In this document: in pieces, positions 15,652 to 20,659 of the stretch
How positions within the stretch are numbered: the first letter of the stretch is position 1
Layout: every line of letters starts with the position of its first letter
Assembly: GCA_003165595.1 (NCBI GenBank)
Contig: PLWQ01000018.1
Coordinates: 1 to 64,000, forward strand
From: Fibrobacterota bacterium
GTDB taxonomy: Bacteria > Fibrobacterota > Chitinivibrionia > Chitinivibrionales > FEN-1185
Length of the DNA stretch: 64,000 nucleotides
Direction of reading: 5' to 3'
Program-made: the position numbers and the translations under genes
The notes under the pieces: model-generated
What the model was told of the DNA's origin: nothing
Database searches by the model: none
What the model saw: the letters and a program-made list of their open reading frames with translations, nothing else

Positions 15652-15752
15652 GACTTGGTGGGGGAGGTTTCCCCCTGGCCACAAGCCTCCTCGCCGCGCT
15701 CCGCGCGTCTGCGGGGTCTTGTGGCACACCCCCTCGGCAGGTGGCCCCGAGG
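15652..15752 (+). repeat. Dispersed repeat R3, copy 1 (downstream of hydA)
   Basis: It begins ~15 bases after the hydA stop. It shares TGGTGGGGGA, GTTTCCCCCTGG and later CACACCCCCTC and GCAGGTGGCCCC with 20464-20576. GGGGGA/TCCCCC gives a tight hairpin. The middle differs but keeps the potential for a long hairpin in both copies. Confidence 0.6.
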
Positions 15753-15756
15753 CCGC

Positions 15757-15838
15757 TGGCCGAGCCCGGAGGGAGACCGACCCAATTCAGTCGCGAAACA
15801 AATTGCGCCACTGAATTGGGATACGCCCAGATTTTCTT
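15757..15838 (+). repeat. Partial copy of dispersed repeat R4
   Basis: It contains GGCCGAGCC, AGGGAGACCGACCC and CGCCCAGATT, in the same order as in the fuller copy at 26080-26232. It directly follows the R3 copy. Confidence 0.5.
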
Positions 15839-15895: not shown

Positions 15896-16010
15896 CATAT
15901 CGTTTCCTGCGGCAAGGGGCACTGCTCCGATACCAAGGGCGAAGAAGATCGGGAACGGACAATCCCGCTTTTGGCCCCGGGAACACGAGGCCAAAAGCGG
16001 GATTTTTTGT
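15896..16010 (+). ncRNA. Candidate riboswitch-like leader with terminator, upstream of the hydrogenase maturation operon
   Basis: A compact region folds upstream of a terminator. CCGAT (15927-15931) pairs with ATCGG (15948-15952), and CGTTTC near 15901 can pair with GAACG at 15953-15957. CGGGA (15950-15954) can instead pair with TCCCG (15963-15967), which is the 5' arm of the terminator. The three helices are mutually exclusive: this is the aptamer/antiterminator/terminator layout of a transcription-attenuating riboswitch. I do not recognise a known class. The first gene starts at 16038 with GGGAGG upstream. No ligand can be named from the sequence. Confidence 0.5.
15961..16008 (+). terminator. 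Strong intrinsic terminator before the maturation operon
   Basis: AATCCCGCTTTTGGCC (15961-15976) and GGCCAAAAGCGGGATT (15989-16004) form a perfect 16-bp stem with a 12-base loop, followed by TTTT. It lies only ~30 bases upstream of the next start codon, so it may act as an attenuator rather than only ending hydA transcription. Confidence 0.85.
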
Positions 16011-16037
16011 TTTCACCACACCCTGCAGGGAGGTACA

Positions 16038-16298
16038 ATGGACAAACGCGTCGGTTTCGTGGGGATCATCATCCACGATCGCAAGCAATGGGCCGAAGAA
16101 GTCAACAAGATCCTTTCCGAATTCGGCGAAACCATTGTGGTGCGCACGGGCGTGCCGCATGTTCGCGACAAGAGCTCGGTCATCATGCTCGTTGTGGACG
16201 CCACCTCCGACCAGGTAGGCTCGCTCACGGGCAAGCTGGGCGCGCTGCCGGGCGTGTCCGTCAAGTCCATGCTCGGAAAGCAGAACGGAATCGACTGA
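16038..16298 (+). CDS. TM1266-type iron-only hydrogenase system regulator
   Basis: 86 residues, the normal length. The start RVGFVGIIIHDRKQWAEEVN and the VMLVVDAT-like core mark the TM1266 family: small ACT/NikR-like ferredoxin-fold proteins found next to hydE/hydG/hydF and called iron-only hydrogenase system regulators. No DNA-binding domain is visible; its ligand is unknown. RBS GGGAGG. It leads a tight operon with aspA (3-base gap), hydF and hydG, behind a strong terminator/leader. Confidence 0.9.
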   Translation: MDKRVGFVGIIIHDRKQWAEEVNKILSEFGETIVVRTGVPHVRDKSSVIMLVVDATSDQVGSLTGKLGALPGVSVKSMLGKQNGID

Positions 16299-16301
16299 GG
16301 C

Positions 16302-17699
16302 ATGAACACCCGCACCGAACACGATCTTCTCGGCGAGCGCCAGGTCCCTGCCGACGCGTACTGGGGCATCCACACGCTCCGCGCACAGGAAAATTTTCCG
16401 CTCGGAGGCGGCCGTGTTCGTCCCGAGCTGATCGCGGCGCTCGCTCGTGTCAAGAAGGCCTGCTGCCTCGCTAACGCCGACCTCGGCTACCTTGGCGCGG
16501 GGCAGTCGCGCGCCATCGAATCGGCGTGCGACGAGATCATCGAAGGCGGGCTTGCCGACCAGTTCCCTCTCGACAAACTGCAGGGCGGGGCAGGCACCTC
16601 CACGAACATGAATGTCAACGAGGTGATTGCCAACCGCGCCTTGGAGCTCCTCGGCAGGAGCAGGGGAGATTATTCGGCGATTCATCCAATCGATCATGTC
16701 AACCTGCACCAGTCGACAAACGACGTGTACCCGACGGGCCTCAAGGTCGCTTGCATTCTGGGCGTGCGGGTGCTGAGCGCCGCGGCGGCCGAATTGCAGG
16801 GCGCTTTGCAGAAGAAGGAAAAGGAGTTTGCAGCCGTCGTCACCATCGGACGCACCGAGATGCAGAACGCCGTGCCCATGACGCTGGGCAGCCAGTTCGC
16901 GTCGTTTGCGGATGCACTGGGCCGGGACCGCTGGCGAGCGTTCAAGTGCGAAGAGCGGTTGCGTGTTGTCAATATAGGCGGAACCGCCATCGGTACCGGT
17001 TTGGCGGCGCCGCGGGAGTACATTTTTCTCGTTATTGAAAAGCTGCGTGAGTGTACCGGGCTGGGGCTCACGCGGGCGGAAAACGGCATGGACCAGACGG
17101 CCAATGCCGATTCGTTCGCCGAGGTCGCGGGCATTCTTGCCGCGCACGCCGTCAACCTGCAGAAGGTAAGCAACGACCTGCGCCTCCTGCACTTTGCCGG
17201 CGATATCGTGTTGCCGCCGGTCCAGGCCGGATCGTCCATGATGCCCGGCAAGGTAAACCCGGTGATCTGCGAGGCTGCCATCAATGCTGCGGTCAGGGCG
17301 CGGTCCAACGCCGCGCTGGCCATCGAGCTTGCATCAATGGGAACGCTTCAGATCAACGAGTTTCTGCCGCTTCTGGGGCAGGCGTTGCTTGATGCGATTT
17401 ACGTGTGCGCATCAGCCGATCGCATGCTCGCACGGCATGTTGAGGGAATCGCCGCCGATCCCGAGATGTGCAGGAAGCACGTCGACGAAACCACCTCGAT
17501 TGTAACCGCGCTCGTGCCGGACATCGGCTACGAAACGGCTCAGAACCTGGTGGTTGAATTTCGCGTGAAAGGCGGCCGGTCGTTTCGCGGATTTCTCGAG
17601 GACAAACTGGGCAAGGACGTTGTTGACGAAGTACTCTCTCCTGCGCGGCTTATGGCGCTGGGGCATTCGAAGAACGGCCCGGACAAGCGCAAGGCATAA
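16302..17699 (+). CDS. aspA: Aspartate ammonia-lyase in the hydrogenase maturation operon
   Basis: 465 residues. Fumarase/aspartase superfamily blocks are clear: GAGTSTNMNVNEVIANRALE near 100, the Ser/His region HPIDHVNLHQSTNDVYPTGL near 128, and the signature GSSMMPGKVNP near 308. It would convert L-aspartate to fumarate and ammonia in the cytoplasm. Its place between the TM1266 gene and hydF, with 2-3-base gaps, is a recurring arrangement in hydrogenase maturation clusters. Supply of ammonia or a linked amino-acid signal for H-cluster assembly has been suggested by such context; that role is inference here. Confidence 0.92.
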   Translation: MNTRTEHDLLGERQVPADAYWGIHTLRAQENFPLGGGRVRPELIAALARVKKACCLANADLGYLGAGQSRAIESACDEIIEGGLADQFPLDKLQGGAGTSTNMNVNEVIANRALELLGRSRGDYSAIHPIDHVNLHQSTNDVYPTGLKVACILGVRVLSAAAAELQGALQKKEKEFAAVVTIGRTEMQNAVPMTLGSQFASFADALGRDRWRAFKCEERLRVVNIGGTAIGTGLAAPREYIFLVIEKLRECTGLGLTRAENGMDQTANADSFAEVAGILAAHAVNLQKVSNDLRLLHFAGDIVLPPVQAGSSMMPGKVNPVICEAAINAAVRARSNAALAIELASMGTLQINEFLPLLGQALLDAIYVCASADRMLARHVEGIAADPEMCRKHVDETTSIVTALVPDIGYETAQNLVVEFRVKGGRSFRGFLEDKLGKDVVDEVLSPARLMALGHSKNGPDKRKA

Positions 17700-20463: not shown

Positions 20464-20576
20464 GTCCTGGTGGGGGAAGTTTCCCCCTGGGGTGCAGCTT
20501 CCTCGCGCCGGAAAACTGCGCGAGGTGATCTGCACCCACACCCCCTCTGCAGGTGGCCCCCATGGCAGTTGGTTGG
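20464..20576 (+). repeat. Dispersed repeat R3, copy 2 (downstream of hydG)
   Basis: Shares TGGTGGGGGAAG, TTTCCCCCTGG, CACACCCCCTC and GCAGGTGGCCCC with 15652-15752. It contains the perfect hairpin GGGGGAA/TTCCCCC and a second inverted repeat GGGTGCAG/CTGCACCC. It starts ~16 bases after the hydG stop, as copy 1 does after hydA. Confidence 0.6.
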
Positions 20577-20659
20577 CAAGATAGAAACGACGGCGTGGGG
20601 GCACCAAGAGAGTTTCTCCGGACTGGAATACAGATGTCGATGCAAAGAATGCGAAACGT

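Follow-up and report, generated by a model that had tools for sequence, protein, structure and literature searches.

The window analysed here is a stretch of 64,000 nucleotides from a Fibrobacterota contig, which carries on its forward strand an operon of H-cluster maturation genes. Curated models identify its members as TM1266 (TIGR03959/PF21699; 16038-16298, start codon at 16038), which fold comparison places among the small NikR_C/ACT-like regulators, aspA of the aspartate ammonia-lyase family (16302-17699), hydF (TIGR03918; 17702-18961), hydG (TIGR03955; 18958-20448) and hydE (TIGR03956; 20660-21778). A ribosome-binding site for TM1266, GGGAGG, lies at 16028-16033, and the gene upstream of the operon, hydA, encodes a group A6 NADH-dependent [FeFe] hydrogenase as judged by curated models. 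An intergenic element that begins GTGGGGGA(G/A)GTTTCCCCCTGG occurs twice in the window, after hydA (15658-15790) and between hydG and hydE (20470-20640), and looks like a genomic repeat family.

The leader of the operon ends in an intrinsic terminator (15961-16008, forward strand), whose 5' arm AATCCCGCTTTTGGCC (15961-15976) and 3' arm GGCCAAAAGCGGGATT (15989-16004) form a stem of 16 base pairs with 0 mismatches around a loop of 12 nucleotides, followed by a T tract at 16003-16008 and, after about 30 nucleotides, by TM1266. A perfect 16-bp terminator ahead of TM1266-aspA-hydF-hydG-hydE had been described in an earlier note on this DNA and is present exactly where it was placed. Folding of the leader is far more stable than that of shuffled sequences (z -6.1), mostly because of this terminator. 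No promoter was identified upstream of 15897 in the window, and a comparison of the leader DNA with the rest of its own genome returned nothing beyond short chance matches.

Sequence searches and alignment

TM1266 orthologues were gathered from relatives of the window genome and from named genomes, and the regions upstream of them were read for shared features. A covariance model built from 14 sequences (R1) was run on whole genomes and was followed by later models (R2 and R3). Weak matches (E>1e-4) were retained only if hyd genes followed them; matches lying within unrelated genes, or with no hyd genes, were dropped. All results come from computation. Covariation was assessed for 12 base pairs in an alignment of 99 sequences (A4), which had been fitted to a model carrying the same P1a and P2 pairs with P1b left out.

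A conserved sensor hairpin in the leader

The upstream regions of TM1266 in most relatives share a motif of the form uCCUG[C/A]GGnnAGG-hairpin-CUGAnnCCAAGGG, after which come an intrinsic terminator and TM1266, in that order. The window copy of the motif spans 15905-15939 and is matched by R1 at 15903-15948 with an E-value of 1.9e-9, covariance-model E-values being rough in all of these searches. It belongs to a hairpin of about 40 nucleotides (15900-15942) that was overlooked in the earlier note; in the minimum-free-energy prediction the nascent leader folds into it. The layout of the hairpin is P1a (CCU/AGG), a 2x1 internal loop, P1b (GG/CC), a second internal loop and P2 (GGGGC/GCUCC). The 5' strand of P1a, UCCU (15905-15908), is near-invariant in the 99 sequences and pairs with AGGG at 15936-15939. 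It is followed by the conserved internal-loop residues G[C/A] (15909-15910), facing A15935, and by the 5' strand of P1b (GG, 15911-15912), which pairs with CC at 15933-15934. P2 occupies 15916-15928 (GGGGC-ACU-GCUCC), and the 3' side of the second internal loop reads GAUA (15929-15932; consensus GAnn). In the window genome, an additional outer helix joins TCGT (15900-15903) to GCGA (15939-15942). By inspection, the internal loops do not carry the NNN-GA / GA signature, and a kink-turn reading was rejected.

The pairings are supported by covariation. Changes on both sides of a pair were counted in 144 cells, as compared with 51±11 in shuffled alignments, and the covariation score was 0.332, as compared with 0.180±0.009 after shuffling and at most 0.121 when the structure was slid along the alignment; the signal remained clear after collapse to 70 sequences below 75% identity. 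Covariation is strong in P2, where AU, GC, CG and UA types occur at the same pairs, and in P1b. Since the alignment was fitted to a model lacking P1b, this helix constitutes the fairer test, and its first pair is represented by GC in 66 sequences, GU in 23 and AU in 6. More distant relatives build P1b from other bases, namely UAAC/GUUA (L031-L033), CC/GG (L067 and L206), GUU/AAC (L213) and GAG/CUC (L203). P1a is nearly invariant and therefore shows no covariation and is uninformative in this respect.

The upstream helix proposed in the earlier note (CCGAT at 15927-15931 with ATCGG at 15948-15952) is complementary but disfavoured, as forcing it costs 5 kcal/mol (-9.3 vs -14.3), and it is not the structure that is conserved among the relatives. 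Its proposed extension, CGTTTC with GAACG, is likewise complementary and nearly isoenergetic with the best fold (-14.1 vs -14.3), but no conservation of it was seen.

The covarying base-paired structure also bears on the possibility of leader-peptide attenuation, in which a short open reading frame behind the Shine-Dalgarno-like AAGGGG would couple translation to termination. In several relatives (e.g. L035, L040 and L041) AAGGGG is indeed followed a few nucleotides downstream by ATG or GTG. However, start codons occur there in 33 of the 69 loci against 30.2 in shuffles, no conserved short reading frame was found in the leaders of these loci, the window lacks a start codon at that position, and the covariation is that of a base-paired structure. 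This mode of control is thus very improbable.

Distribution of the element

Covariance-model searches identified the element in about 120 genomes, many of them metagenome-assembled, from three phyla, the phylum labels of the genome groups being taken from named records within the same group. It is consistently associated with the same genes, as it nearly always heads H-cluster maturation operons (TM1266, aspA, hydF/G/E) and otherwise lies directly before hydG. In the phylum of the window, represented by 168 genomes, the strong matches of R1 comprise the TM1266 leaders, an additional copy 370 nucleotides ahead of TM1266 in one genome (G012) and a copy directly before hydG in each of two genus mates. 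Among the 384 genomes of the Omnitrophota group, 67 have a match at E<=0.01, and at E<1e-4 all 36 matches precede TM1266 or hydG. In the Bacillota group R2 detected the element in 14 of 299 genomes, most matches again preceding TM1266 or hydG; in one order of this group R3 added further genomes, in two of which a hydG-like gene comes directly after the element, and model-based searching of individual TM1266 loci yielded another three. The copies before hydG-like genes in G719 and G865 (L223 and L224) have a much enlarged P2 arm. As a negative control, 120 genomes of the Spirochaetota gave only two marginal matches, neither of them near hyd genes, which indicates a low rate of false positives.

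The genes led by the element vary in composition. Many of the operons do not include aspA; therefore, the sensing of an amino acid or ammonia, which the earlier note had considered on account of aspA, is not favoured. In one genome, G578, the element is followed by an SsuCBA-like ABC transporter and then by TM1266-hydE-hydF, the SsuC/SsuB/SsuA-like importer lying between the RNA element and these genes on the reverse complement of L179 (2084-7445). The importer possibly hints at a substrate needed for H-cluster assembly.

Competition between the hairpin and the terminator

A terminator-like hairpin begins within 80 nucleotides of the motif in 68 of 85 loci, at a median distance of 56 nucleotides. 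Inside this hairpin, 28 of 69 loci have the exact complement of their own CCUG[C/A]; the corresponding number is 2.5±1.5 after shuffling of the hairpins and 19.9±2.4 after their exchange between loci. In transcripts ending before the 3' arm of the terminator, the computed probability of P1 across 68 loci is 0.20 with the real 5' arm and 0.55 with shuffled arms; a minority of loci (e.g. L039, L161 and L165) lack such competition from their own arm.

The same complementarity can be followed in the window by folding the growing transcript. Transcripts reaching no further than 15976 favour the sensor hairpin. At 15988 an antiterminator is preferred (-33.5 kcal/mol, as compared with -24.2 when the hairpin is forced), and once the 3' arm has been transcribed the terminator dominates (-48.5). 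The loop segment of the terminator, CGGGAACACGA (15978-15988), is the complement of 15900-15909 (UCGUUUCCUG), which includes the 5' strand of P1a, and forms the outer antiterminator helices 15900-15903/15985-15988 and 15904-15909/15978-15983; this loop complementarity is the one enriched in the relatives. Further inwards follow 15937-15940/15974-15977, which engages the 3' strand of P1a with the terminator arm, 15943-15947/15968-15972, and 15950-15954/15963-15967. The last of these is the pairing of CGGGA with TCCCG proposed in the earlier note, which is indeed complementary and is predicted as one piece of this longer antiterminator. As the 5' arm and the loop of the terminator complement both strands of P1, the hairpin and the antiterminator are mutually exclusive, and the antiterminator in turn excludes the terminator in these computed structures.

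The element at 15900-16008 is thus, with high confidence, a conserved attenuator of the H-cluster maturation genes. The general proposal of the earlier note, an attenuator with mutually exclusive structures before TM1266-aspA-hydF-hydG-hydE, is upheld by the covariation and the conservation in three phyla. If the stem were a plain terminator serving hydA upstream, the maturation operon would be read by leak-through or from an unnoticed promoter and the upstream pairings would have arisen by chance. This reading has in its favour that hydA ends 325 nucleotides upstream and that a perfect GC-rich stem works without regulation. Against it, sequence and structure of the hairpin are maintained across about 120 genomes regardless of the upstream gene, terminators complement the hairpin strands beyond chance, and about 30 nucleotides would be all the room for a promoter between the terminator and the start codon. 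This explanation is accordingly considered highly unlikely.

In the model suggested by these folding energies, the sensor hairpin would fold first during transcription of the leader. The emerging 5' arm and loop of the terminator would then strip both strands of P1 and form the antiterminator, leaving the genes ON, while a hairpin that is bound and held would leave the 5' arm free, so that the terminator would form and the operon would be OFF. The OFF direction of the switch is derived from the energies computed for the window, where the composite antiterminator outcompetes the free hairpin at 15988; whatever holds the hairpin should therefore cause termination.

In L046 and L053 (about 1500-1780, oriented), both of them leaders of hydG, no canonical terminator is evident nearby by eye. 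In these the 3' strand of P1 may pair with CTGTTCTTCT, the continuation of which complements the hydG ribosome-binding site, an arrangement which suggests that the element may act there by translational control.

TM1266 as the candidate effector

The occurrence of the element follows that of TM1266. In the Omnitrophota group, 157 genomes encode HydG above the cut-off and 84 encode TM1266. TM1266 is present in all 36 genomes with the motif at E<1e-4, and at this threshold the motif occurs in 36 of 82 genomes with both HydG and TM1266 and in 0 of 75 with HydG alone (p=6e-13). The latter yielded three weaker matches (E<=0.01), all without a downstream hyd gene. When the regions ahead of the other TM1266 genes were searched with high sensitivity, the count rose to 81 of the 84 TM1266 genomes. 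Genomes in which the element heads only hydG encode TM1266 later in the operon or elsewhere, and G540 carries copies before both hydG and TM1266. Given such strict co-occurrence of a regulatory protein with the RNA, a protein effector is no less likely than a metabolite, and the confinement of the motif to TM1266 genomes points to an OFF attenuator with the TM1266 protein as its most likely effector. The motif and TM1266 are usually adjacent, and co-inheritance without binding may give the same co-occurrence; TM1266 genes without the motif are also found (L006, L015, L029 and L030).

The regulatory fold of TM1266 is ferredoxin-like and comes closest to the NikR C-terminal and ACT domains; RNA-binding proteins that share this topology, S6 and S10/NusE among them, are less similar. 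Family searches detected only the TM1266-like/NikR_C domain and no DNA-binding domain; R4, R15 and R36 are invariant arginines. No report of RNA binding by TM1266 was found in the open-access literature. Encoded by the first gene, TM1266 would be the most likely binder of the hairpin, in the role of an RNA-binding attenuation protein that itself senses a metal, a cofactor or the state of assembly. The chances that TM1266 is the effector of the hairpin are about even. The fuller proposal, in which an ACT/NikR-type attenuation protein senses the H-cluster assembly state or a metal, binds the hairpin of its own leader as well as copies in trans before hydG, and thereby terminates transcription of the maturation genes, is more tentative and falls a little short of even odds.

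A true riboswitch is the main rival. In this case the same hairpin would bind, with no protein involved, a small molecule or metal of H-cluster assembly (a product or substrate of HydG or HydE, or iron), and the bound hairpin would favour the terminator. The highly conserved unpaired residues of the two internal loops (G7, A16, CURA and A78/A79), the classic layout of aptamer, antiterminator and terminator, the use of hydG alone as a target and the operon with an SsuCBA-like importer directly behind the motif are all in keeping with such a sensor. However, confinement to genomes bearing TM1266 (0/75 of those with HydG alone at E<1e-4) is unexpected for a metabolite sensor, and no second pathway that might hint at the ligand was found under the same control. 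Moreover, a hairpin that has internal loops but neither branches nor an evident pseudoknot is simple for a natural aptamer. A small-molecule riboswitch is retained as a strong, if less probable, explanation because operon linkage could by itself yield the co-occurrence and because several TM1266 genes lack the motif. The attenuator in which the hairpin, antiterminator and terminator compete, which is OFF when the hairpin is bound and for which TM1266 is the most likely effector, is the best overall explanation, with a probability of roughly 0.5.

Relation to known attenuators

The covariance models of Rfam 15 gave no gathering-level match to the element, and permissive E-values returned only chance microRNA and leuA models, in agreement with the earlier note, in which no known aptamer class had been recognised. 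No report of a leader RNA linked to this operon, to TM1266 or to HydEFG was found in the open-access literature, including the main text of recent genome-wide searches for structured RNAs. The element is regarded as a new family of RNA, though of a known kind, the transcription attenuators. In Desulfosporosinus sp. Tol-M (L034), two molybdenum-cofactor riboswitches with equal scores (2597-2728 and 2800-2931) lie in tandem, 203 nucleotides apart.

Like terminator-type riboswitches, the element occupies a 5' leader and combines a conserved folded sensor with an antiterminator and a terminator that compete for shared strands; it differs from them in its lack of an Rfam 15 aptamer match, its unbranched hairpin and its restriction to genomes encoding one small regulatory protein. 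RNA-binding attenuation proteins are known from the TRAP, PyrR, HutP and L10-type autoregulation systems (PMC4538822, PMC3913778). The present system resembles these in having a small regulatory protein and a leader hairpin before the operon putatively controlled, and in the choice between terminator and antiterminator. It differs in that family and fold searches show no homology of TM1266 to their proteins, and TM1266 is a putative RNA binder. ANTAR targets are two-hairpin antiterminators. They exemplify protein-controlled antitermination through mutually exclusive hairpins (PMC3369931), a principle that the present element would share, in which, however, one hairpin swaps strands with the terminator; the only domain found in TM1266 is TM1266-like/NikR_C. 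The first gene product of the window has the same fold as the TM1266 / NikR C-terminal domain (PDB 2nzc; TM 0.89-0.95). TM1266 does not have the additional domain through which NikR acts on DNA.

Control of [FeFe]-hydrogenase maturation at the RNA level was not found described in the open-access literature, and the annotation of TM1266 as a regulator has so far named neither a target nor a mechanism. A widespread structured RNA element and TM1266 are here brought together into one directly testable hypothesis, and the element could offer a genetic handle on hydrogen production and on the cellular sensing of H-cluster assembly.
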